DNA of 64,000 nt from Histomonas meleagridis (lineage: Eukaryota; Parabasalia; Tritrichomonadida; Dientamoebidae): positions 372,001-436,000 of the forward strand of contig WSYJ01000033.1 in NCBI GenBank assembly GCA_020186115.1, written 5' to 3'. The translations under genes and the position numbers were made by a program. Below the pieces are notes generated by a model. That model was not told the origin of the DNA, ran no database searches, and saw only the letters and a program-made list of their open reading frames with translations. Shown here piece by piece: positions 1,098 through 63,969 of this stretch; position 1 is the first letter of the stretch; each line of letters opens with the position of its first letter.

Positions 1098-1636
1098 ACA
1101 AGTTTTGATATTTCATCATTTCGAATTATTTTTGCAATTTCATTCGGATTAACTCCTTCTTTAACATATTGCTTATGAAGTTCAAAATTATTCTCTTTAA
1201 GTTCTTCTGTTTGCTTGTTAATATTTTCTTTTTCTGGGAAATAATGCATAAAATATGTTTGGATAATTTTTGGTTCAATTATTTCGTCTTCAATCATTTT
1301 TTCAAGAAGATAATTTGATTCTTGACTATAAATTGCTAATAATAATTGTGTGAAAACGTTGATGATTTTTTAACTTGACTTTGTTTCAATTGTTTGTAAA
1401 TACTTGAAACATAATTTTTCATAGCCACGTGATACGAAATATGAATAAGTAATTCTACAAATGATATGAAGAAAAGAATATTGAAATTCTAAACAAATGT
1501 AATTTAATGAAGATTCAACTAAATGAAATCATTGATCAATGTTATTTTCATTTAAATCAAATATAATTTTTTCTAGATCTTGTAATATTTGAAGATTTCC
1601 TTTGTAAGTTGTTGCATAACTTTGGCTTCCTCCCAT
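1098..1636 (-). pseudogene. DUF3447 gene fragment (N-terminal half), inverted
   Basis: Read leftward from an ATG at 1636, the translation follows the N-terminal half of the DUF3447 genes: QILQDLEKIIFDLNENNIDQ, then after stops ESNYLLEKMIEDEIIEPKII, then LHKQYVKEGVNPNEIAKIIR. Homology ends near 1100, abruptly, just after the RNDEISKL block. The rest of the module sits on the opposite strand at 860-1077. In-frame stops near 1370 and 1530 make it a pseudogene. Confidence 0.75.
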
Positions 1637-1873: not shown

Positions 1874-3462
1874 TCAAGAAAGTGAAGTCAAAGTCTTTTC
1901 TATTTGGATTCCTAATGATTGAAACATTTCTGTATCCCCTTTATGTAACAATAACCTTAATGACACATCACTTGGCGTTGTGAACTTTGCATTTATGCTT
2001 ACATAAAACAAAGTATCCATTGTTCTTATATACATTGTTAATGGATCTGGATGAAACCATTGTACTTCTTTATCTGCAAGTAATAACTGAATTGAGCCAA
2101 AGATACTCCAAACAGATATTCCGGCCGTATTAATTGTATATGAATCTAAATATTCATTCACATTTGTTTCTCGAATGATATTAAAATCACTTGCTTGTGC
2201 AAATGAATACATTTCAAGTGATTGGCTTTGTATAGGTTTCTTTGGATTTTGTCTAAATAATGTGTTACTACTTGTAGATACTGATGGATCACTTGAAATG
2301 CTGATCGGCGTGTTAACGGTCGAATTGATTAACGGTACGGGGTACCCCGAATATGCGCATTCCCATGGAAGTTGGTCCAAATCAATGAACTGATTTGTTA
2401 ACATGACAACAAATACTTTTGTCATGTTGTTTTCGGTGGATTGAAGATCGTTATAAAGATCATTACCAGATATCCCAATCTGACTAAGTATTTCAATAAT
2501 GGCTGGTGGAATATTATTAACATCAATAGCCCGAAAGAACTTAGGAAATGGAATCGGAGAGGGTGGAATATATGATGGCATAAGACCAATTCGAAAGGCT
2601 GGATGTTGAACTATTTCATCAAGAGTAATACGTTGGGTAACATCAACTGTTAACATTCGTCGGATTAAGTCTTGGACATCAGGGGAGAAGTTGAGCATCT
2701 GATAGACACCTCTCTTGACTTTATTAAGAAGATTTCTGATTGATGAATCATCAAATGGCAAATATCCCTATGTGTTAGATTTAATATACATGGGCCCCAA
2801 AAAATCACTTGGGGACCAAAAAAACATACTGCAAGCAAAGCATATAATATTACACCAAGACTCCAAATATCAGATACCCGTCCATCATAAGGTTGACCAC
2901 GGATAATTTCAGGAGCAGCATAGTGAGGTGACCCACATGATGTTTCAGTTTGCATATTTTCTCTAACCCATCTTGCAAATCCAAAATCTGCAAGTTTAAT
3001 TCGCTTGTTAGCATCAAGTAAAATATTTTCTGGCTTTAAGTCTCGATGACATATTCCCAAAGAATGAAGATAACCAACAGCTAAGACAATTTGTCTGAAT
3101 AATTCCATTGCAACATCTTCTTGGAAGAAATGATTTGTTACAAGGTAATCAAAAAGTTCTCCTTGTTCTTCGTATTCAAGTATAATATATAGATGTCTTT
3201 TTGATTCTAAAACATCATATAATTTCATGATATTTGGATGTTGTACAAGCCTCATTAGTGCAACTTCGCGTTTCACTTTTAGCTGAAGTTCTTCATTTTC
3301 GAGGAAGAGACTTTTTGAAATAATTTTAATAGCAACTTGTTGTCCTGTTTCTTTGTGGAATGCTAATTTAACTTTTGATGTAATCCCTTCACCGAGAGTT
3401 TTAGAAAGAACGTATGGTCCAATTTCAGCTCGGAATGGTGGTGTTGCTAGATCGGCCTCCAT
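1874..3462 (-). CDS. Ser/Thr protein kinase, CAMK/SNF1-like, with one spliceosomal intron
   Basis: A protein kinase predicted to phosphorylate Ser/Thr, in two exons: 3462-2830 (211 codons) and 2767-1874 (297 codons plus stop), about 508 residues in all. Exon 1 shows the glycine loop (GEG, 24-26), VAIK lysine 46, HRDLKPEN (139-146), DFG (159-161) and a CGSPHYAAPE activation segment (176-185), typical of CAMK/SNF1-type kinases. It ends in the SLGVILYALLA helix. Exon 2 resumes with GYLPFDD and carries the C-lobe (VQDLIRRMLTVDVTQRI, then HPAF). The C-terminal 200 residues have no clear motif but could hold a KA1-like regulatory domain. Both exons are whole codons, so splicing is phase 0. Without splicing the frame is lost after residue 211. 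Group assignment is from family knowledge; the substrate is unknown. Confidence 0.9.
2768..2829 (-). other. Spliceosomal intron, 62 nt, trichomonad type
   Basis: On the minus strand it begins GTATGT and ends TCTAACACATAG, matching the trichomonad consensus in which branch site and 3' splice site are fused (ACTAACACACAG). Excision joins the YALLA and GYLPFDD halves of the kinase domain in frame. The interior holds an inverted repeat (CCCCAA ... TTGGGG, extended with one mismatch) that would fold between the splice sites. It is the only sequence in the window I found with both signatures. Confidence 0.9.
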
Positions 3463-3913: not shown

Positions 3914-5190
3914 CTACGTACTTACACCCATTTTCTCATTGAGGATTTTAATAATTTCTAAATTCTTTCCATTCTCTGCATAATAAAGTGCATCGTGAAA
4001 CAAATTATAGAGATTCCAAAAACATATTTAAAACCGAAAATTGCTTAAATAAATTTTATATAAAATTAACAAACATCTTTTGCATTAATATCAATTTCTT
4101 CATGTTCAACCAATAATTTAACAATTTCAGTATAACTTTTTTGTACTGCAACAATTAGTGGTGTTCGAAGTCATTTAAATAATTATCAAACCATGTAAAT
4201 AAATATTAAATTATGCAAAGAAATTTTAAATAAAATAAAAAAACATCAATTGTATTAACATTTATATCCTTATGTTCAATTAATAATTTAACAACTTCAG
4301 TGTAATTCCTATCAACTGCAATATGTAGTGATGTTAGAATCTTTCAAAATAATCATTAAATTATGTAAATAAATATCAAGTTATGTGAATAAATATTATA
4401 TAATCAAATAAGATTCGAAATAAAATAAAAAAACATCAGCTGCATTAACATTTATATCTTTATGTTCAAGTAATAGTTTAACAATTTCAGCGTTGTTATT
4501 CTTAGTTGCAATTATTAGTGCAGTCTGAAATTATTAGAGCAATCACCAAATGATATAAGTAATTTATAAATTATCAAATAAGATTCGAAATGAAACAAAA
4601 ATTCATCACCTGCATTTACATTCAGATCTTTTCGTTTTAAAAGTAATTTAATAACATCAATGAAATTGGAAGATGCTGCAACAACTAGAGCAGTACAAAA
4701 ATTTAAAAAATTCCAAAAACTATTTTAATACATGCCATTATAAAATAAAAAACAAAATAAATCAAGTAAAAATTTAATGCATTAACATTAGTTCCTTCTT
4801 GTTTAAGTAATAATTTAACAGATTCAACACGATTATCTGATGCAGCGTTTAAAAGGGGTGTCCAAAATCATAGAAATAAAAATAAAATATATTTAACATA
4901 TAGCGAATTTATAAAATAAACCTTAAAATTAAAAAATAAGTATTATGTGCATTAAGATCAATGCCTGGTTGTTTAAAAAGTAACTTCATAATATTAAGAT
5001 GACCATTTTGAGCTGCAAAATAAAGTGGTGTTTTATTTAATTTTAATATAAATCATTAAATAATATGATTTAACTATAAATTTTTTTTAAAAATATCCAT
5101 TGTATTAACATCAATATTTTCATATTTAAGTAATGATTTAACAATTCCATAATCACCAATTTGAGCAGCAGTTAATAAAGCATTATAAAA
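3914..5190 (-). repeat. Eight ankyrin cassettes separated by frame-shifting spacers (array A)
   Basis: This continues the DUF3447 gene that ends at 5241. Cassettes, first to last: 5190-5089, 5037-4936, 4867-4766, 4700-4609, 4530-4429, 4340-4239, 4170-4069 and 4000-3914. Each is an open ankyrin repeat of the form F-x-T-(A/P)-L ... E-I-V-K-L-L ... (I/L)-(D/N)-x-N-x-x-(D/N). The last ends EKMGVST and a stop. Spacers are 60, 51, 68, 65, 78, 88, 68 and 68 nt. They shift the frame or contain stops, and none has GT-AG ends. The cassettes differ strongly from one another, so this is not a fresh duplication, yet I found no internal stop in about 260 codons. They look like real exons; how the spacers are removed or bypassed is not visible. 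Confidence 0.7.
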
Positions 5191-5240: not shown

Positions 5241-6617
5241 CTATATATTAAAAATATTAATTTCACGTTTTGCATTTTTCATTCCCATATCAATTAAATA
5301 ATCAAATAATTCAACATTTCCTGATTTCATTAAATAATGTATACAACTACTTTCATTATAATGTAATGTGTATTTAATTTTAAAATATTGAACAAAAAAT
5401 ATGTTTCCAGAAAATTTGGATTCATTTATTATTTCTTGATCAATTTGTAGTCCTTGTTCTTCTAAAAATGAAAAAATTTCAAAGTTATAACTTTGAATAC
5501 ATTTAGTACCTAATGATTGCAAATTTTTTTGATTTATTTTATCATAGAAATAATGGAAAAGTTCATTTCTATGAAATTCGATTGCTGTTTCTAATACGTT
5601 ATCAAACGATGATTCATTTTGATTACATAAATGAACAATTTCAACATTTTCTCCAGCAATTGCATATTTTAATGTGGATTTAACATTTGCTCCATTAATT
5701 AATAAATATTTAAAACATTTAACAGAACCAAAAAATGCACAGAAATCAATTAACGAAACATTATTTTTGTTAATCATATCAAATCTTTCGTATATTGATG
5801 GTTTAATTTTTTGATTAAAATTGAAATTATTTTGTGATGAAATATTTTGTAATTCTTCTAAATTATCATTGCGAAGAATTTTTGCAATTTCATTTGGATT
5901 AATTGCTTCGTGGATTAATTGTTTATGAAGTTTCCAATCATCTTTTGACAACTCATTAATGTTAGAAATAAAGTCAGAAGGATAACTACTTTGTGGAAAT
6001 TCTTTTAATGTATCCAAATATGCAAAATAACATATATCTTTATATTTAACTATACTTGGTTTAACTAAATTATGCTCAAGTAATTTTTCAAGAATGAAAT
6101 TCGATTCTTGTGTTTTTGTTCTCATTAAATATTCGGTAAAAACATTTAATATTTCAACATTTTTCGTTTGTAGTTCTTTTAAAGAGTCAATAACAATATT
6201 TACGTTTGGTTTTGAAATATAAAATGAATAAAGTAATTTACTAATAAGTAAACTTGATGAATAAGGATATTTGGTATCGAATAATTCCATTATTGATGGA
6301 ATTGTTTTTTGAATGTTTGTTTCATTTAAATTAAAAATTAGTTTTTCTATATTTTTTAAATTCAATCGAATTATTTCATTAGAAAAATGATTTTGACTTA
6401 ATAGCAAAGTAGTTAACTGAACGAACATGTTAGTAAATTTGGTACCAATGGTTGTTTGCGAACTTTTTAATGGATCACCAATTAAGTTTAAAAATGATTT
6501 AATTTTTTCATAAAGAATTTGTATTTGATTCGAAGATAATTCAGTTTTCTCTAGGCTTTTAACACACTGAAGAAGTTCATCAAATTCTGGTGAATTTTCA
6601 AACTTTTCTATCTCCAT
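5241..6617 (-). CDS. DUF3447 ankyrin-repeat protein (contiguous N-terminal frame, locus A)
   Basis: The 458-residue open frame starts at the ATG at 6617. Residues 1-225 are a helical N-terminal region of the family. The DUF3447 core follows with LHKQLIHEAINPNEIAKILR, FNFNQKIKPSIYERFDMINK, FGSVKCFKYLLINGANVKST and IVHLCNQNESSFDNVLETAI, then ankyrin-like helices. The function of DUF3447 is unknown; ankyrin repeats bind proteins. The frame stops inside the first spacer, after KREINIF. Eight more open cassettes continue downstream on the same strand, so the intended product may be about 270 residues longer. It is the most diverged of the four loci. It is divergent from CK2 beta with 89 bp between start codons. 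Confidence 0.85.
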   Translation of the reverse strand: MEIEKFENSPEFDELLQCVKSLEKTELSSNQIQILYEKIKSFLNLIGDPLKSSQTTIGTKFTNMFVQLTTLLLSQNHFSNEIIRLNLKNIEKLIFNLNETNIQKTIPSIMELFDTKYPYSSSLLISKLLYSFYISKPNVNIVIDSLKELQTKNVEILNVFTEYLMRTKTQESNFILEKLLEHNLVKPSIVKYKDICYFAYLDTLKEFPQSSYPSDFISNINELSKDDWKLHKQLIHEAINPNEIAKILRNDNLEELQNISSQNNFNFNQKIKPSIYERFDMINKNNVSLIDFCAFFGSVKCFKYLLINGANVKSTLKYAIAGENVEIVHLCNQNESSFDNVLETAIEFHRNELFHYFYDKINQKNLQSLGTKCIQSYNFEIFSFLEEQGLQIDQEIINESKFSGNIFFVQYFKIKYTLHYNESSCIHYLMKSGNVELFDYLIDMGMKNAKREINIFNI

Positions 6618-24090: not shown

Positions 24091-25350
24091 ATGAGCTTGA
24101 ATGACCAAGTCCAGCAACTAAAAGAGCTACAGAAAATTGTTTTAAATCTTGACGCAAATAATACCGAGGAATCAATTGAGATGACGATGAATTTTTTAAA
24201 TGAAAGTTTTCCTGTTTCTTTTAATATTACTTTGAGTAACTTAATATATGCATCTTATTTAGCACAAACGAAGGACGTTAATATCTATATTCAATATATT
24301 AAAGGAATTGAAAAAAAAGAAGAAGAACTCAAAATTGAACATCGAATAATTGAAGATTTTTCAAAGATTCTAACATGGGATGCAGATAGATCTTATTATC
24401 TTCTTGAGAAAATGATTGAACAAAATTTAATTAGTTCTCAACTTGTTAAAACTTCATGTTCATTATATTTTGCACATTATAAATCACATCAAGAAATCTA
24501 TTCATTAAAAAATAATGCACGATTTGACATAAAATTCTTTCGAAATATTCTGGAACTTTCAAAGAATCATTGGGAACTCCATAAGAAATATATTGAAGAA
24601 GGAGTTAATCCAAATGAAATATCAAAAATAATTCGAAATGATGAAATAGAAAAACTTCAAGAATTATCATCACAAAATAATTTTGATTTTAATCAAAGAA
24701 TTGAACCATCGCTTTATGAAAGATGTGATTTTATTAATAAAAAAAATGTTACATTAATTGATTTTGCAGCATATTTTGGAGCAATTCAATGTTTTAAATA
24801 TTTATTAATGAATAATGCAAAAGTTGAAAACACAGGTAAATATGCAATTGCAGGCGGAAATCTTGAAATTATTCATTTATGCGAACAAAATCATTCATCA
24901 TTTGAAAATGCATATGAAACTGCAATTGAATTTCATCAAAATGATATATTTTATTATCTTTATGATAAGAAAATGATTGAAATTAATGATTTGACTTCAT
25001 TAGGAATAAAATGTATTTCTTGTTCTAATTATGAAATTCTTTCATTTTTATTTGATAAAGGAATTGAAGTTAATGATTCTGTTATTTATGAGTCAGTAAA
25101 GATGGGGAATATGGTTCTGACAAAATATTTTACCAAAGGGAAAATAATTCCTAAAGATATTATTGTTTATGCTACACAATCAGGAAATATTGAGCTTGTT
25201 AAATTAGTTCTTGAGCAAAAAAGTATTAATATTAATGCTAAAGGTTTTTATTTATCCTATTTAATATTTATTTTAATAATTTTATATTTCAAAATAATAT
25301 TTGGAAATAATTTATATTATTTTATACAGCACTTATATGGACAACAGTAA
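24091..25350 (+). CDS. DUF3447 ankyrin-repeat protein (contiguous N-terminal frame, locus C)
   Basis: The 419-residue frame starts at an ATG. Residues 1-155 are the helical family N-terminus. DUF3447 spans about 160-310 (LHKKYIEEGVNPNEISKIIR, FGAIQCFKYLLMNNAKVENT, IIHLCEQNHSSFENAYETAI). A first ankyrin unit follows (GNIELVKLVLEQKSININAK). The coding match ends near 25251. Beyond it the frame reads into the first spacer and adds a hydrophobic tail (FYLSYLIFILIILYFKIIFG) before stopping. Six more ankyrin cassettes follow in other frames. If the spacer is retained the protein would be short with a possible membrane tail; if removed, a long ankyrin protein. Confidence 0.85.
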   Translation: MSLNDQVQQLKELQKIVLNLDANNTEESIEMTMNFLNESFPVSFNITLSNLIYASYLAQTKDVNIYIQYIKGIEKKEEELKIEHRIIEDFSKILTWDADRSYYLLEKMIEQNLISSQLVKTSCSLYFAHYKSHQEIYSLKNNARFDIKFFRNILELSKNHWELHKKYIEEGVNPNEISKIIRNDEIEKLQELSSQNNFDFNQRIEPSLYERCDFINKKNVTLIDFAAYFGAIQCFKYLLMNNAKVENTGKYAIAGGNLEIIHLCEQNHSSFENAYETAIEFHQNDIFYYLYDKKMIEINDLTSLGIKCISCSNYEILSFLFDKGIEVNDSVIYESVKMGNMVLTKYFTKGKIIPKDIIVYATQSGNIELVKLVLEQKSININAKGFYLSYLIFILIILYFKIIFGNNLYYFIQHLYGQQ

Positions 25351-26247
25351 AAAATTACATAGAAATAGCTAAATTACTTCTTAGACAAAAAGGAATAGAT
25401 ATAAATGAGAATGTTTTTTCTTTTTAATGTTTGTTTTTTGTGAGAAATTTATGTTTCCAAAGGAATATTTGGAAATTATTTAAATTATTTAATACAGCAC
25501 TTATCTATGCAACTAAAAAAAATAATATCGAAATGGTTAAATTGCTTCTTGAACAAAAAGGGATTGATGTTAATGCTAAAGATGATATTAATTTATTTTA
25601 TTTGTTATTTATTTTAATAATTTGATATTTCAATATAATATTTGGAAATTATTTGAAATATTTCAAACAGCACTTATAACAGCAGTAAAGAATGAATATA
25701 CTCAAATAGTTAAATTACTACTTGCATATAAAAAAACTGATGTTAATACTAAAGATGTTGTTTATTTCAACAATTTATTATTTCAAAACATTATTTGATG
25801 ATTACCAAAAACATTTCAAACACCGCTTATGATAGCATCTGATAAAGGTAATGTTGAAATCGTAAAATTACTTCTTGAACAAGAAGGAATTGATGTTAAT
25901 GCTAAAGATATTTATTTGTTTTATTTGAAATTTATTTGAATAATTTGATATTTCAATAATATTTGGAAATTATTTGAAATATTTCAAACAGCACTTATAT
26001 TAGCATCTTTTCATACTGATAATAAGTATAACCAATCAAGCACCAAAAAGGTTTTTTTATGATATTCAATATTAATTTCTTCATTTTGATGATTTTCGAT
26101 ATGATTTGATATTTTATAAAATTATTTACAGAACCACTTAAAGAATCATCTACACAACAGTACAAAAAAATTGTTAAATTACTTCGTGAAAAAGGTGCTT
26201 GTGATTCAAAACCCACCTCATCATATGATTATGATGATGATTTTTAG
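25320..26247 (+). repeat. Six ankyrin cassettes separated by frame-shifting spacers (array C)
   Basis: Cassettes: 25320-25418, 25488-25592, 25661-25765, 25814-25915, 25982-26056 and 26125-26247. All are open. The last ends with a cap (IVKLLREKGACDSKP), an acidic SYDYDDDF tail and a TAG. Spacers, including the one before cassette 1, are 68, 69, 68, 48, 66 and 68 nt. The 48-nt spacer (25766-25813) contains no AG at all, and its following cassette begins ACACCG rather than ACAGCA, so AG is not the obligatory end of the spacer. Cassette 5 is shorter and more diverged. Confidence 0.7.
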
Positions 26248-29908: not shown

Positions 29909-30490
29909 TTACTCAAGAACCTCTTTGATTTCATAGAATCCTTGCTTGTGGCCACATGCAGGACATTCAGCAGGCGCCTCAAATCCTCTGAAAACGTATC
30001 CACAATTCCTGCATTTCCATTCAACTTCACGATCACGCTTGAAAACAGTGCCTGTTTCAACCTGGTGCGCAAGGATCCTAAACCTTTTTTCATGTTCAAG
30101 CTCAACAGATGCAATTTTCCTAAAAAGATCAGCAATTTCAGGAAATCCTTCTTGTTCTGCAACTTCGGCCATGTGTGGATATGCTTGGGAGTGTTCTTCT
30201 TTTTCACCATCGGCAGCTTGTTTTAAGTTTTCAAGTGTTGATCCAATGAATGATCCTGGAATTTCACATTGAACATGAATTGGTGCGCCAGTACCCTTAA
30301 GTGTCTTAAGGAAGCGTTTTGCATGCTCGCGTTCATTTTCAGCTGTTTCAAGGAAAATAGCAGCAATTTGTTCATATCCTTGTTTTTTAGCTACACTTGC
30401 AAAAAATGTGTATCTGTTTCTGGCCATTGATTCCCCAGCAAATGCTATTGCTAAGTTCTTTTCTGTTCTGGATCCTTTTAGTTGAGTCAT
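29909..30490 (-). CDS. Rubrerythrin (bacterial-type peroxide reductase)
   Basis: The 193-residue diiron protein reduces hydrogen peroxide in anaerobes. The ATG at 30490 (MTQLKGSRTEKNL) matches the family start; the longer frame begins with GTG. The ferritin-like domain shows FAGESMARNRY (E20) and ENEREH (E53, H56). The C-terminal rubredoxin knuckle has CRNC (160, 163) and CPAC (176, 179). No hydrogenosomal presequence is visible, so I expect a cytosolic enzyme. The family is prokaryotic in origin, so an old transfer is likely. The coding region is clearly less AT-rich than its flanks. Confidence 0.96.
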   Translation of the reverse strand: MTQLKGSRTEKNLAIAFAGESMARNRYTFFASVAKKQGYEQIAAIFLETAENEREHAKRFLKTLKGTGAPIHVQCEIPGSFIGSTLENLKQAADGEKEEHSQAYPHMAEVAEQEGFPEIADLFRKIASVELEHEKRFRILAHQVETGTVFKRDREVEWKCRNCGYVFRGFEAPAECPACGHKQGFYEIKEVLE

Positions 30491-33412: not shown

Positions 33413-33842
33413 TTATTTTGCTTTGGAACTAACTTTTTTTTCAAACAATTCAACAATTTCTGAAAATCCATAATCGATTGCATATCTTAATGGTGTAAAA
33501 AATCATTTAAATAATTTCCAAATATAATTTTCCAACAATATTTTTTTGAAATAAATCATAAAGAAAACAAATAAATATCTTTAACATTGATATCAATTCC
33601 TTTCTGTTCAAGAAGTAATTTAACAATTTCTGCATAACCACATTTAGATGCTTTTATAAGTGCTGTTTCAAATAATTTAAATTATTTCCAAATATTGTTT
33701 TGTTATAGAAAATTATTAAAACAAATTGCAAATAAAATAAACAAATAGCTTTAACATTAACATTAATTCCTTTTTGTTCAAGAAGTAATTTAACTATTTC
33801 TGTATCGCCTTTTTCACATGCATAAATTAGAGCTGTTTCAAA
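33413..33842 (-). repeat. Three ankyrin cassettes separated by 68-nt spacers (array F)
   Basis: Cassettes, first to last: 33842-33741, 33672-33571 and 33502-33413. They continue the DUF3447 gene to their right. All three spacers, including the one after the DUF3447 exon (33843-33910), are exactly 68 nt. Cassettes 1 and 2 begin F-E-T-A-L. The last begins F-F-T-P-L (codons TTTTTTACACCA, with no AG), runs RYAIDYGFSEIVELFEKK and ends SSKAK plus stop. All are open. Confidence 0.72.
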
Positions 33843-35101
33843 CGAATGAAATAATTTCCAAATCTTATTTTGGAATATGAAATTGTTGATAAAAATACCA
33901 AATAAAACAAATATATATCTTTGGCATTAATATTTATACCTTCTTGTTCTAACATAAATTTTGTAAGTTCAATGTTTTTTGATTCTATTGTGAATTTTAA
34001 TATGTTTTTCGGAATTGGATTTTCTTTGAGAAAATATTTAACCAGAAATATATTTCCTGTTTTTGCTGTTTGGTTGATAATTGAATCATTAATTTTCATA
34101 CCTTTTTCTTGTAAAAATGTAAATATTTCATAATTATGATATAAAACACAAAACTTCCCAATTTCATCTAAATTATTATTATATTTATTTTCTAATTTGC
34201 TCTCATAAAGATATTTAAAAATATTATTTTGATGATATTCAATTGCTGCTTCATATGCATCTTTAAATGTTGAATGATTTTGTTCACATAAATGAATAAT
34301 TTCTTCATTTCCACCTACAACAGCAAATCTGCCTGAATTTTCTACTTTTGCTCCATTCATAAGTAAATATTTAAAACATTTAACTGATCCAAAAAATGCT
34401 GCATAATTAATTAATGAAATGTTATATTGATTGATATAAGAACATTTTTCATAAAGTGATGGTTTAATCAATTGATTAAAATTAAAATCATTTTGTGATG
34501 TTATTTCTTGAAGTTTTTCTATTTCATCATTTCGAATTATTTTTGATATTTCATTTGGATTATGTCCTTCTTTAATTAATTTCTTATGTAATTCCCAATC
34601 ATTATTTGAAAGTTCGTCATAATTTTCAATGATTTCGCTAATAAAATAGTTAATTAAATTTTCGTGGTTATCCACATATTGTATAAAATATGGAAGATAT
34701 GTATTTTTGACAACTTTTGGTTCAATGAAATTATGTTCAATTAACTCATTAAGAAAATAATTTGATTCTTGCGTTTTATTTTCAAGAAGAAAACGTATGA
34801 ACTCGTCGAAAATTTTTGTTTTGCTTTTGTTATTTTCTTCCAAGGTTTTAATTGTTTCCAAAAAATTTAAATACTTATTAAATTCATTCATATTTATAGC
34901 AAAAAATATGTACATCATTTGAACAACAATTAAGTTAAAAGAAAATGGATGATTTTCATCAAATTTGTTTATTATTAAATTTGCTGTTGAGGTAATATTT
35001 TCTTCACCCAAACTAAAAATCAACTGCCTGACGATTAGAAGCAATCCCCACTCATTCTGTGAATTTTGTTTCGAACTTTTTCTTTTTTTTCGAGAAAACA
35101 T
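33827..35101 (-). CDS. DUF3447 ankyrin-repeat protein (contiguous N-terminal frame, locus F)
   Basis: The 424-residue frame starts at an ATG with a basic N-terminus (MFSRKKRKSSKQ). The DUF3447 core spans about 170-320 (LHKKLIKEGHNPNEISKIIR, FGSVKCFKYLLMNGAKVENS, IIHLCEQNHSTFKDAYEAAI). A first ankyrin unit ends in EGININAKD. The coding match ends at about 33911. The frame then reads 68 nt of spacer as a hydrophobic tail (IYLFYLVFLSTISYSKIRFG) and overlaps cassette 1 out of frame before stopping. Family function is unknown. It lies close to locus H in sequence. Confidence 0.85.
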   Translation of the reverse strand: MFSRKKRKSSKQNSQNEWGLLLIVRQLIFSLGEENITSTANLIINKFDENHPFSFNLIVVQMMYIFFAINMNEFNKYLNFLETIKTLEENNKSKTKIFDEFIRFLLENKTQESNYFLNELIEHNFIEPKVVKNTYLPYFIQYVDNHENLINYFISEIIENYDELSNNDWELHKKLIKEGHNPNEISKIIRNDEIEKLQEITSQNDFNFNQLIKPSLYEKCSYINQYNISLINYAAFFGSVKCFKYLLMNGAKVENSGRFAVVGGNEEIIHLCEQNHSTFKDAYEAAIEYHQNNIFKYLYESKLENKYNNNLDEIGKFCVLYHNYEIFTFLQEKGMKINDSIINQTAKTGNIFLVKYFLKENPIPKNILKFTIESKNIELTKFMLEQEGININAKDIYLFYLVFLSTISYSKIRFGNYFIRLKQL

Positions 35102-51790: not shown

Positions 51791-53585
51791 CTATATTTGA
51801 TCTGGTGATATCAATTTAACTATTTCATTAGATCCATTTTTAGATGCCATCATAAGTGCTGTATCAAATATTTTAAGTAATTTCCAAATATTATAATGAA
51901 GCATACAATCAGTGAAACAAAAACTAAATAAAATAATTAAATATCTTTCAAATTAATATCAATTTCTTTTTGGTCAAGAAATAGTTTTACTAATTCGATA
52001 AAACCATTTTCACATGATTTCATAAGTACTGTTTTAAACAATTTGAATAATTCCCAAATAAAATTTTGAAACTAAAAATCATTTAAATGAATTTTAATAA
52101 AAACAAATAAATATTTTGATTATTAATATCTATATCTTTTTGTTCAAGAAGTAATTTAACTACCCCTATATTATGTTTATAAGTTGCTTTCATAAGTGCT
52201 GTATCAAATATTTATAATAATTTCCAAAAATTATTAAGAAATATAAAACATTTTTAAAAAAATTCAAATAAAACAAACAAAAATTTTTTGTATTAATATC
52301 AATTCCTCCTATTCCAAGAATAAACTTCACTGCATCTATACTTCCTTCGTATGATGCTATCATAAGTGCTGTATCAAATAATATAAGTAATTTCCATTAA
52401 CAATTTTCAAACAAAAAATTATATAAATAAAATTCGAATAAAACATTTATATATTTTTAGCAGTGATATCAATTCCTTCATACTCAAGAAATACTTTCAT
52501 AATTTCTACGCGATCATTTATAACAGCATTTATAAAGGCAGTATTAAGTTTTTGGAATAATTCCCAAATATTATCATAAAATTTCGAATTATTAAAATAA
52601 AGCCAAAATAAAACACATAAATATCTTTCAAATTAATATCTATTCCTTTTTGCTCAAGAAGTAATTTAACAACATCAATATGATTATTTTCAGTTGCATA
52701 AATAAGTGGTGTTTTAAACAATTTCAATAATTTCCAAATTGTATTTAAAAACTTTAATTTATTGAAACAAGTTTTATTTAAAATAAGTGAATATCTTTCA
52801 TATTAATATCAATTCCTTTTTGTTCAATAAATAGTTTAATGATTTCAATGTTATTGTTGTTAATTGCACAAATAAATGCTGAAAGAATTAATTCAAATAA
52901 TCTCCAAATATCGTTTAGAAACATTAAATTATTAAAAATTATATTAAATAAAACAAATAAATATCTTTAGCATTAATATCAATTCCTTTTTGTTCAAGAA
53001 GTAACTTAACTATTTCAGTATGACCATTTTTAGATGCATACATAAGTGCTGTATAAAATAACTTAAATAATTTCCAAATATTATTTTGAAATATTCCAAA
53101 ATTATTAAAATAAAATATAAACAAAAGAAATAAATATCTTTAGCATTAACATCAATTCCTTCTTGTTCAAGAAGCAATTTAACAATTTCAGTATGACCAT
53201 TTTTAGATGCATACATAAGTGCTGTATAAAATAATTTAAATAATTTCCAAACATTACTTTGAAATAAAAAATAATTAAAATAAATTTCATATAAAACAAA
53301 TAAATATCTTTAGTATTAACATCAATTCCTTCTTTTTCAAGAAGTAATTTAACTATTTTTGTATAACCATTTTCAGCTGCATATAATAAAGCTGTTTTAA
53401 ATAATTTAAATAATTTTCAAATACAAATAATTTTTAAGTATTATTTTGTGATATTAAATCATTAAAATATATCCAAAATGAAATAAATAAATATCTTTAG
53501 CATTAACATTAATTTTTTCTTTTTGAAGAAGCATTTTAACTATTTTTATAAAGTCATTTTCAGCAGCAACAAACAATGAATGAAA
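51791..53585 (-). repeat. Eleven ankyrin cassettes separated by frame-shifting spacers (array H)
   Basis: Cassettes, first to last: 53585-53487, 53401-53300, 53231-53130, 53058-52957, 52888-52787, 52718-52617, 52548-52450, 52378-52277, 52208-52107, 52038-51940 and 51868-51791. They continue the DUF3447 gene on the right. The dominant period is 170 nt: 102 coding plus 68 spacer. All eleven are open and the last ends KLISPDQI plus stop. Typical unit: F-x-T-A-L-M-Y-A-S-K-N-G-H-T-E-I-V-K-L-L, then EQKGIDINAKD. Spacers share TTRTTTTATTT near the start and TTTGGAAATTATTT near the end, and carry stops or shift frame. Confidence 0.75.
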
Positions 53586-54874
53586 TAATTCAAACAAATA
53601 TCAAATATTATTTGGAAACATAAAATAAAAAAAATTTGCATACTTACATATAAATAATCATATAGAGGATTTGATTCAGTTTCTTCTTCAAGAAGATATT
53701 TAACAAGTTCACAATTTCCTGATTGTAAAGAAAATAATAAAATATGAGTTGGAAATTTTCTTCCTTTCATAAAATTCTTAACGAAAAATAAATTTCCGAT
53801 TTTGGCTGATTCTAATATAATATCATCATTGACATTCATTCCTTCTTTTTGCAAAAATGTAAAAAGTTCATAATTATGATATCTAACGCATATTACTCCT
53901 AAATTTTCTAGAATTACATTTTTTTCGATTTTCTTATCATAAAGATAATAAAAGATATCATTTCGATGAAATTCAATTGCTGCTTCATATGCATCTTTAA
54001 ATGATGAATGATTTTGTTCACATAAATGAATTATCTCTGAATTTCCACCAGCAACTGCATATTTTCCTGTATTAAATACTTTTGTATCATTCATAAGTAA
54101 ATATTTAAAACATTTAACTGCAGAAAAAAATGCTGCATAATCAATTAATGAAACATTGTTTTGATTGATAAATGAATAGCTTTCATAAAGTGATGGTAAA
54201 ATATATTGATTAAAATCAAATTTGTTTTGTGATGATATTTCTTGAAGTTTTTCGATTTCATCATTTCGAATTATTTTTGCAATTTCATTTGTGTTAACTC
54301 CTTCTTCAATAAATTTCTTATGAAGTTCCCAATTATTCTTTGAAAGTTCTTCATAATTATCAACTATTTGTTTCTTAAAATTATTGGATTTTAATGTAGA
54401 TAATTCTTTTTCAGACATAAAATGTACAAAATATGGAATTTTTTTAAAGAGAGTTTTTTTGAATATATCAAGTAAGTGGTTAGATTTTTTACCAAGAAAA
54501 TTATGTTCAATCAATTTATCTAGAAGATAATCCAATTCTTGAGTCTGGTTCAGAAGAAAAAGAGCGAAAACATCAAAAATTTTGGATTTTATATTGTTGT
54601 TTTCTTCAAGCATTTCAATTTCATTTAAAAAATTCAAATATATATTAAAATCATTCATTTTCATAGCAAACATTAAACATATCATCTGAATTATAATTAT
54701 ATTGCATGTAATTGGATGAATTTCATCAATTTTATTTATTATTAAATTTGCTGATTGAGAAATATTATGATTATTTAAATTAAGAATTATTTTATTGATT
54801 GATAACAAAGTTTCCCATTCATTATGGTTTACATTATTTTGCTTTACCCAATTGATATTCTTCACAGGTATCAT
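53546..54874 (-). CDS. DUF3447 ankyrin-repeat protein (contiguous N-terminal frame, locus H)
   Basis: 442 residues from the ATG at 54874; one extra codon upstream is TTG. The family N-terminus is followed by the DUF3447 core at about 185-340 (LHKKFIEEGVNTNEIAKIIR, FSAVKCFKYLLMNDTKVFNT, IIHLCEQNHSSFKDAYEAAI). A first ankyrin unit (GNCELVKYLLEEETES) ends near 53648. The frame then enters the first spacer, which here begins GTAAGTATG, and reads a hydrophobic tail (IFFILCFQIIFDICLNYF) before stopping inside cassette 1, out of frame with it. Eleven cassettes follow. If joined, the product would be about 780 residues. Confidence 0.85.
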   Translation of the reverse strand: MIPVKNINWVKQNNVNHNEWETLLSINKIILNLNNHNISQSANLIINKIDEIHPITCNIIIIQMICLMFAMKMNDFNIYLNFLNEIEMLEENNNIKSKIFDVFALFLLNQTQELDYLLDKLIEHNFLGKKSNHLLDIFKKTLFKKIPYFVHFMSEKELSTLKSNNFKKQIVDNYEELSKNNWELHKKFIEEGVNTNEIAKIIRNDEIEKLQEISSQNKFDFNQYILPSLYESYSFINQNNVSLIDYAAFFSAVKCFKYLLMNDTKVFNTGKYAVAGGNSEIIHLCEQNHSSFKDAYEAAIEFHRNDIFYYLYDKKIEKNVILENLGVICVRYHNYELFTFLQKEGMNVNDDIILESAKIGNLFFVKNFMKGRKFPTHILLFSLQSGNCELVKYLLEEETESNPLYDYLYVSMQIFFILCFQIIFDICLNYFIHCLLLLKMTL

Positions 54875-56818: not shown

Positions 56819-57087
56819 TAAATATTTTCAGCATTAATATCAATTCCTTCATGTTCAAGAAGTAATTTAACTATTTTTGTTGTGACATTATCAGATACTC
56901 TCATTTGTGCTTTATCAAATAATTTAAATAATTTCCAAATATTATTTAGAATTTCTAAGTTATTTAAATAAATATTAAATAAAACAAATAAATATCTTTA
57001 GTATTAACATCAATTCCTTCCTTCTCAAGAAGTAATCTAATTATTTGTTCATAACCTTTTTTAGATGCGAATAAGTTCTGTTTTAAG
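56819..57087 (-). pseudogene. Two orphan ankyrin cassettes without a DUF3447 gene
   Basis: Upstream unit 57087-56988 has the cassette pattern but a frameshift near its start; it ends EGIDVNTKD. The second, 56919-56819, is open (KIVKLLLEHEGIDINAEN). The spacer between them is again exactly 68 nt with the conserved ends. No DUF3447 part lies upstream; the divergent RCC1 gene begins 138 bp away. These are relics of a lost locus, or silent cassettes. Confidence 0.65.
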
Positions 57088-62562: not shown

Positions 62563-63969
62563 TTATGAATAAAAATTAAGATTAATTGTGGAAATATATC
62601 TATCAACCTCATCAATTTCGTCATTCCTTAGTGATGCATAATGAAGCGATGGATTTAATCCAAGTGCTAATTATAAATCCAGACGATATTTTTCACAGGT
62701 CATTTCCCACCTTAATATCATCGATTGATCGAATGCTTTCACTGCATCCCTCCATTCAGGATGAATATTCAGCTGATGAACAAGATCACTGATGAATCGA
62801 AAAGATTGTATCACGAATGATCTCGATCCAAAACAATCTCTTTCTAAGTTTAATGATACTTCTTTGAATTTCTATAGTACACTTAGTAGTGCTTTTGTTT
62901 TATCCCAGAAATCATCTGGAGGAGGTGCTGTACCATTACTTGTGAGAAATTGTATTATTAATGGTTGCAAAGCATTAACTGCTTTAACCATTGAATAAAT
63001 ACTATACCATCTAGTTTCTGTATAAGATGGAATAGATATTACATGAGATCCATTCATTATTTTACAGAACTGCCTAAACACTGTACTACTTCCAAGATCT
63101 CTTTGAATCTCTTTGATGTCATCAAATGCATTACCTGCAGCTGTAATAAAATCTTGTAATATAAGATTCAATATATGACAGTAACATGGTGACCATTTTA
63201 TTTGAAGCATATCACTCGTAGCTTTCATCACAGGCGCTGAGTCACTAACCATATCTGCTATTTGATTATTTTCAATATTATATTGGCTAAGGCATTCCTT
63301 TGTGATATTTGATAGTACTTGAGCTGTAGCATGCATTTCTTCAATTGGTACAAGATTCAAAGTATGAATGTTATAATTTCCTGGGAATTGACAGTGTACT
63401 TGAATACCTAGAAATTTTCTGCACATTTTGTCATTCCATTCATCCATTGAAAGACAGATTTTCTAAGCATGAGGTAATCTTGAGCCCATTATATTCCTGA
63501 TTGTATCAGCTGTAGAAGAGCAGAATGATGCAAGATCTTTTCGTGTATGTATACCTGGAAACAGTTGTGCAATAATATCATTATCTAAAATTCTGAACGG
63601 TAATCCAGATGTTAATATGAATAATCTGAATAATCGATTTCTTTCATTGTTAGATAGTTCTAATTGTTCTTCGATAAGTTCATGGTGTTTATGTTTGATG
63701 TGATTGTTTAAGTTTCCAATTGTGGCATTCATTGAATGCCATGAATTGCACCGTGTACAATAGAAATGAAAAGTATCAATTGTTGGAGGGATCGTTTCTA
63801 TGTTTGTAATTAAGACAATAATGAATAAATATTTTATATTTCTTGACCAACCATTTATAATAATCGAATGCGGATGATTTGTAATTTCTAGGTCAATTGA
63901 TAGGTCTGCTGCTTGAGAGAAATGCTTATAACTATTTATCATTAATAAAAGTGAGATCAATAAGGGCAA
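62563..63969 (-). pseudogene. hAT-type transposase relic
   Basis: One minus-strand frame runs from the window edge to 62563 and is interrupted by three in-frame stops: TAG near 63462, TAG near 62872 and TAA near 62670. The N-terminal part has a BED-like zinc finger (FYCTRCNSWHSMNATIGNLN, then HIKHKHHEL). The middle has hAT core motifs (MVSDSAPVMK, WSPCYCHILNLI, then YTETRWYSIYSMV). The last part (HPEWRDAVKAF) should precede the dimerisation region, which is missing. No frameshift has accumulated, so inactivation is recent. The 5' end is cut by the window or degraded; no ATG opens the frame. Confidence 0.82.

Follow-up and report, generated by a model that had tools for sequence, protein, structure and literature searches.

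Elements of translational bypassing, known from gene 60 of phage T4 and from the byps of yeast mitochondria, are ~27–55 nucleotides (nt) long and structured, with matched take-off and landing codons. The introns of mikrocytids (16–17 base pairs) and of heterotrich ciliates (15–16 base pairs) are described in excerpts of PMC10245619 as spliceosomal, conserved in sequence, spliced in RNA and, in Mikrocytos, present in genes of several functions. Excerpts of PMC6221363 and PMC4770533 give the nonconventional introns of euglenids and diplonemids non-canonical borders, a stable RNA structure joining their ends, and a route of removal stated as unknown, and an excerpt of PMC12316389 describes the spliceosomal introns of Trichomonas vaginalis as GT..AG elements with extended motifs, one per gene, with three T. 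stableri genes having two. Here, a 64,000-nt stretch of the parabasalid Histomonas meleagridis (contig WSYJ01000033.1, positions 372,001–436,000; G000:C27:372001-436000), called the window below, was analyzed at four loci (A, C, F, and H) where a DUF3447 frame is followed by ankyrin cassettes separated by short spacers. The spacers are built on a 17-nt quantum laid out codon by codon along the ankyrin loop, with no stop at the isolated codons, a retained Gly, and no GT...AG in the 17-nt units.

Like the micro-introns of mikrocytids and heterotrichs, the Histomonas units are very short and nearly of fixed length, but unlike them, as far as the excerpts of PMC10245619 go, they have no GT..AG, were observed solely in ankyrin loops, and form runs of up to five spaced by single codons. 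Their non-canonical borders resemble those of the euglenid and diplonemid introns, from which they differ, on the excerpts cited above, in being of one small length within unstructured spacers. As with the introns of T. vaginalis, the genes are parabasalid nuclear genes, some of those in the excerpt of PMC12316389 being ankyrin genes also, but the 17-nt units have neither GT..AG nor the motifs of the genome's own GTATGT...CTAAC stretches. As in bypassing, a coding sequence is broken by stretches that are not to be decoded; unlike bypass elements, these are 17 nt long, unstructured, and flanked by unmatched codons. Among the literature matches listed, none described inserts that combine the absence of GT..AG with single-codon spacing and confinement to one loop, and the length lock by itself has a precedent in the fixed-size 15–17 nt micro-introns of the excerpts of PMC10245619.

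All four window open reading frames (ORFs) exceeded the Pfam cut-off of 26.9 bits for DUF3447 (PF11929), and read as bare ORFs they terminated within the first spacer or shortly beyond. At locus H, the frame was followed by eleven open ankyrin cassettes with a change of frame at each, ending at an in-frame stop at ~51791, as an earlier note on this DNA had described, and the same layout at loci A, C, and F was found as that note had reported it. Its total of 28 cassettes became 27 or 28 past the four ORFs, with the end of locus C not sharply defined, and its statement that no cassette has an internal stop held for every cassette in the window and for most others, an internal stop being present in 4 of 256 profile-found cassettes, none of these four in the window. 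Nor is the layout limited, as the note had it, to four loci: it was present in 19 of 20 other DUF3447 loci (L009–L028) fetched from the H. meleagridis assembly (43.28 Mb, 121 contigs) and chosen non-randomly within the top 32 of 150 scored rows, out of 1,695 candidates. Two more ankyrin cassettes, with an 80-nt spacer at 56914–56993, were seen in the window at ~56824–57083 (minus strand), and no DUF3447 frame was noticed upstream of them.

Gaps between neighboring cassettes were exactly 80 nt in 165 of 226 cases. Where the earlier note had taken each repeat to carry one insert, the spacer was resolved into several 17-nt inserts spaced by single codons, and in the common 80-nt form four T-rich inserts ([A/G]TTT…TTT) alternated with four single codons of the loop D-x-x-G-x-T. 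The same composition gives the lengths of 63 nt (3 × 17 + 12), 80 nt (4 × 17 + 12), and 97 nt (5 × 17 + 12); among 213 loop gaps of 12–110 nt, 181 were exactly 17n + 12, and 197 were 17n plus two to five codons, a form that fits 22 of 99 possible lengths. Interrupted loops held one to five units, of one narrow length below ~21 nt as in length-locked micro-introns (17 nt, lengths of 16 and 18 nt being rare), and although the 80-nt spacers diverged by ~34–35% in the two widest of the divergence bins used below for selection, their length was unchanged. By mutual information, the last three bases of the spacer acted as one codon (AAT, AAA, GAT, GAA, or TGG) for the residue preceding T-A-L, and the occurrence of TGG as a unit at positions 38–40 (7 spacers) and 78–80 (19 spacers) favored placement of the inserts in phase 0, with a boundary uncertain by ~1 base in many loops because neighboring bases repeat. 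The pooled units were T-rich, with A (75%) or G (19%) as the first base and a terminal TTT mostly preceded by A (79%), and their ends were less variable than their interiors (0.23–0.29 vs 0.37–0.46). A single 68-nt intron inside the 80-nt spacer was dropped as a candidate after single 17-nt inserts had been found.

Decoding was examined on 159 distinct 80-nt spacers from 22 sources (L001, L002, 19 fetched loci, and the window), using the isolated triplets at positions 18–20, 38–40, 58–60, and 78–80. Stops were found at 0 of 636 isolated codons, zero at each of the four positions, where column shuffles gave expectations of 3.4, 6.9, 0.7, and 17.2, and zero was reached in 5, 0, 129, and 0 of 500 shuffles, respectively; with 129 of 500 shuffles reaching zero at the third position, the Gly codon therefore contributes nothing to this stop test. 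Across 20 offsets, stops ranged from 0 to 324 of 636, with some at 18 offsets and zero only at offsets 17 and 0, and with one spacer taken per source, 0 of 88 codons were stops vs a mean of 7.4 at other offsets. The third isolated codon encoded Gly (GGN) in 123 of 159 spacers (GGA 95, GGT 16, GGG 11, one other), with 7% Gly at the next-best offset; Gly was the majority there in 17 of 22 sources and was present in 8 of 8 80-nt spacers of locus H. Segments between spacers, anchored on the spacers (L002, L009–L028, and the window), were exactly 90 nt in 156 of 189 cases, and a stop in the cassette frame occurred in 4 of these 156, vs 149 and 155 of 156 in the other two frames. The zero stops and the mostly kept loop Gly fit decoding without the inserts, and from these codon data the array is very probably decoded with the 17-nt units left out.

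The earlier note had left three options, namely removal of the spacers from RNA, skipping in translation, and a silent reservoir for recombination; the stop and Gly counts speak for decoding without inserts, as in the first two, and argue against the third. If the cassettes were an archive or decaying debris and only the short DUF3447 protein were made, the bare ORFs would be expected to end, as they do, in or just beyond the first spacer, and the ratio of nonsynonymous to synonymous differences (pN/pS) in cassettes would not be low, as is the case across divergence bins (1.23 in the 16 closest pairs, then 0.82 in 44, 0.70 in 96, and 0.73 in 120). However, a silent reservoir does not agree with stops at 0 of 636 isolated codons when 18 of 20 offsets have some, with cassettes open in 152 of 156 exact-length segments, or with inserts that appear to be present in a relative and hence old. 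The first repeat, fused to DUF3447, also differs by eye from the archive type, so that simple swapping would gain little, and we regard the silent reservoir as very unlikely. The spacers themselves do not look translated, with a stop met in 167 of 212 when they were read through in the upstream frame and in 130 of 212 in the downstream frame. Translation of the spacers as loop insertions, in frame or by programmed frameshifts, would be feasible for 111 of 212 spacers in which open upstream and downstream frames overlap and for 7 of 31 spacers with a length that is a multiple of 3 and an open frame, but the frames do not overlap in the other 101 of 212, and stops interrupt 24 of the 31 in-frame spacers; with roughly half of the spacers in contradiction to it, this reading was rejected as scarcely credible.

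To extend the analysis beyond the DUF3447 set, twelve further ankyrin loci were inspected, and 20 interrupted loops were picked by eye in seven of them (L052, L053, L060, L061, L063, L064, and L065); of the remaining five, L051, L054, L055, and L062 had mostly continuous repeats, and L050 had continuous repeats followed by an array. Lengths were exactly 12 + 17n in 17 of the 20 loops, the length minus 12 being 17 (four), 34 (eleven), or 51 (two), and 11 of 11 uninterrupted loops listed alongside, also chosen by eye, measured 12 nt. Both kinds occurred in L053, where several inter-repeat loops were 12 nt (e.g. GAAAATGGAATG) and two were 29 nt. A placement of the 17-nt units restoring D-x-x-G-x was available in 11 of the 17 exact loops, vs 0.85 ± 0.90 (maximum 4) in 500 shuffled sets.

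Genome-wide, a pattern of Gly, a 17-nt unit beginning with RTTT and ending in TTT, a single codon, and T-P had 133 matches (backward control 2), compared with 3 (control 2) for a 16-nt unit and 1 (control 3) for an 18-nt unit, and the array-type pattern had 2,608 matches at 17 nt (control 0) and 5 at 16 nt (control 1), all of these being raw counts of pattern matches. The array-type pattern fits 42 of 212 sampled loops, and a rough extrapolation from this non-random sample gives ~13,000 interrupted loops in the genome, which at mostly four units each would put the number of units in the tens of thousands. When 28 abutting pairs of open segments of at least 90 codons, in 284 kb of partly overlapping sequence, were inspected by eye, no 17-nt break was seen other than in ankyrin loops; the pairs represented ankyrin arrays, frames that overlap, shifts by one base, and what looked like ordinary introns. 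Among other broken frames, a leucine-rich-repeat-like frame in L016 (~2709–2747, minus strand) had an apparent one-base shift in an A run, from decay or assembly error, and a frame in L030 (~1460–1477, minus strand), presumably of a DHHC-type palmitoyltransferase, was broken beside a match to ACTAACACACAG, probably by an ordinary intron.

The splice signals were then counted in the same units and spacers. GT..AG was found in 0 of 636 units, with GT at the start of 97 and AG at the end of none, and this absence argues against the standard spliceosome. In the 159 spacers, GTATGT and CTAAC were each found in none, and ACATAG or ACACAG in 6. Several kinase paralogs (L032, L033, L038, L040, L045, and L048) carried intron-like stretches of the form GTATGT…CTAAC.CA.AG, all at the same point, and the broader pattern GTATGT…CTAAC(N4)AG had 18 matches in the genome vs 27 in the backward control, 14 of the 18 being GTATGT...CTAAC[A/C/T]CA[T/C]AG of 57–66 nt, so that the motif of these intron-like stretches is supported solely by these 14 matches with a shared ending and by the kinase frames. 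Two other motif candidates were rejected, the Trichomonas-type 3' motif ACTAACACACAG (3 matches vs 2 in the backward control) and GTATGT…CTAACACACAG (1 match, control 0).

Spliceosomal micro-introns with degenerate ends, comparable to the 15–17 nt introns of heterotrich ciliates and mikrocytids, would account for a narrow length at a size that is known in other protists (excerpts of PMC10245619), for the 97 units that start with GT, and for the 6 spacers with ACATAG or ACACAG. Frame-restoring GT..AG stretches of 12–95 nt were, moreover, present in 98 of the 159 80-nt spacers. However, no unit is GT..AG or ends in AG, and in the interrupted loops of other ankyrin genes a single frame-restoring GT..AG was present in 7 of 20, leaving a 12-nt loop in 1 of 20, and in 13 of 20 there was none. 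The kinase stretches carry GTATGT and CTAAC.CA.AG where the 159 spacers have neither, a weak comparison given the 18 matches vs 27 for the motif pattern in the control. Micro-introns of this kind are considered unlikely, and GT-AG introns of any length were rejected as a general explanation, being possible in just 98 of 159 spacers and impossible in 13 of 20 other loops. In the second interrupted loop of L061, frame-restoring GT...AG stretches that would leave a longer loop are likewise present, among them one with 22 nt and a terminal CAG, and part of this insert could be spliceosomal.

Co-translational skipping, with units still present in the message and a ribosome that hops over 17 nt at every codon boundary, possibly cued by the nascent ankyrin chain, would agree with the missing splice signals and with the position of the units at codon boundaries of the array loops, and a peptide-dependent event would explain why units were seen only in ankyrin loops. 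Against it, take-off and landing codons are unmatched, since a unit mostly ends in TTT but follows codons such as GAT, AAT, and GGA, and spacer RNA structure did not exceed that of shuffles (mean z −0.01 over 159 spacers), with no structure found by alifold. We know of no precedent for four consecutive hops with one codon after each, and skipping is judged improbable.

The spacers would best be explained as trains of 17-nt intron-like units placed at one codon boundary after another in the ankyrin beta-hairpin loop, the common 80-nt form having four units in alternation with four codons (x, x, Gly, x). Such units would be taken out, most likely from RNA, to give one continuous ankyrin protein, by a process that would gauge length and weak [A/G]TTT...TTT ends, not GT...AG. 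We infer that the mature message lacks the units and that RNA is the level at which they are lost, a choice preferred for calling on the smallest number of special events in each message; removal from RNA of fixed-length intron-like units by a route other than GT...AG is, with modest confidence, the explanation we favor, although sequence alone does not separate it from translational skipping.

Several observations weigh against RNA removal or against the codon test beneath it. GT..AG is absent from the units in any useful register (0.5% in the best alternative one), and exons of three nucleotides between 17-nt introns would be hard for any known splicing machine, which together with the missing AG speaks against the usual spliceosome. 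The 159 spacers come from related paralogs and are not independent, rows passed over when L009–L028 were chosen included some with stops or short frames, and offset 0 of the spacer also has 0 of 636 stops, because the unit start is mostly RTT, which is not a stop. Selection on the amino acids of the cassettes is weak by pN/pS. The rule of 17n plus whole codons is broken by 16 of 213 loop gaps (e.g. 81, 79, 78, 82, 47, and 101 nt), mostly by 1–2 bases, and these may represent dying copies or units of 16 or 18 nt. For the other ankyrin genes, the D-equivalent residue used as loop anchor was chosen by eye, 3 of 20 interrupted loops are off the 12 + 17n rule (excess 14, 35, and 52), 6 of the 17 exact loops yield no Gly, and lengths of 0, 9, or 15 nt result for a few of the uninterrupted loops in L050, L053, and L061 if the core is taken as a rigid 30 residues. 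Lastly, a deposited protein identical to the L061 frame (P0052) stops inside the insert.

Inserts of the same kind appear to be common to a related organism. Proteins from short contigs, presumably of this relative, seen as translations, end in or enter array-type spacers at the same place, and two of them (P0004 and P0012) have a best identity of 64% to the H. meleagridis genome and so come from another organism. P0053, the L061 ortholog (81% identity across 252 residues), crosses the L061 loop without apparent change of length (…SATFPLFAFLFNFFFNR… beside …SVTFALFVFILNFFYNR…) and then runs out of frame as in Histomonas; inserts shared with a relative would be old. Among 32 matches to the DUF3447 query, the sole Histomonas-named protein (P0014) has a long Asn-Pro-rich stretch adjoining the domain. 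Two Tritrichomonas foetus proteins (P0017 and P0021) share the protein family or domain and the repeat type, and by eye their ankyrin repeats are continuous as deposited.

Positions of the window features are collected in the table. Two other parts of the window were noted, a frame at 29909–30490 (minus strand), which we take to be a rubrerythrin, a bacterial-type enzyme, and two frames at 62872–63942 (minus strand), presumably pieces of a hAT-type transposase with its BED finger.

Table. DUF3447 frames, ankyrin cassettes, and spacers of the four window loci, with an intron-like stretch for comparison (window coordinates).
Feature	Position	Strand	Details
Locus H, DUF3447 (PF11929) open frame	53546..54874	-	DUF3447 E 1.6e-10; ends just beyond first spacer
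Locus H, array	51791..53656	-	11 spacers and 11 ankyrin cassettes; last repeat truncated, with stop
Locus H, spacer 1	53583..53656	-	74 nt; weak anchor
Locus H, spacer	53396..53492	-	97 nt; 5 × 17 + 4 codons, by length
Locus H, spacer	53226..53305	-	80 nt; 4 × 17 + 4 codons (E,F,G,Y)
Locus H, spacer	53053..53135	-	83 nt; 4 × 17 + 5 codons, by length
Locus H, spacer	52883..52962	-	80 nt; codons N,N,G,L
Putative inserts of spacer 52883..52962	52946-52962, 52926-52942, 52906-52922, 52886-52902	-	
Codons of spacer 52883..52962	52943-52945, 52923-52925, 52903-52905, 52883-52885	-	N, N, G, L, in this order
Locus H, spacer	52713..52792	-	80 nt; codons K,K,G,K
Locus H, spacer	52543..52622	-	80 nt; codons W,E,G,N
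Locus H, spacer	52373..52452	-	80 nt; codons E,F,G,D
Locus H, spacer	52203..52282	-	80 nt; codons E,Y,G,D
Locus H, spacer	52033..52112	-	80 nt; codons K,L,G,K
Locus H, last spacer	51863..51942	-	80 nt; codons S,Y,G,D
Locus H, last ankyrin repeat	51791..51862	-	truncated, with stop
Locus A, DUF3447 open frame	5241..6617	-	
Locus A, cassettes	3914..5184	-	spacers 63, 80, 77, 80, 100, 80, last 80 nt
Locus C, DUF3447 open frame	24091..25350	+	
Locus C, cassettes	25246..26247	+	spacers 80, 78, 83, 63 nt, then less clear end
Locus F, DUF3447 open frame	33827..35101	-	
Locus F, cassettes	33413..33916	-	three 80-nt spacers and last repeat
Ordinary-looking intron-like stretch in kinase gene (comparison)	2768..2829	-	62 nt; GTATGT...CTAACACATAG; possible internal stem

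Taken to the whole genome, the proposal would be that single codons of one protein motif are set apart by 17-nt units, possibly tens of thousands of them in all, and that the machinery removing or passing over them, distinct from the GT-AG spliceosome and from every described bypass, measures 17 nt up to five times per loop and decodes three-nucleotide exons; this wider proposal is put forward tentatively. If removal from RNA is true, H. meleagridis would have a large number of intron-like elements that are among the shortest known, observed in a single domain and separated by single-codon exons, beyond present models of splicing, and if translational skipping is true, its extent would exceed that of any other ribosome skipping known to us. 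Either way, gene models of the DUF3447/ankyrin family are cut short, as in the deposited model of L061 that ends at the insert, and proteome searches would miss the repeats of a large ankyrin family.

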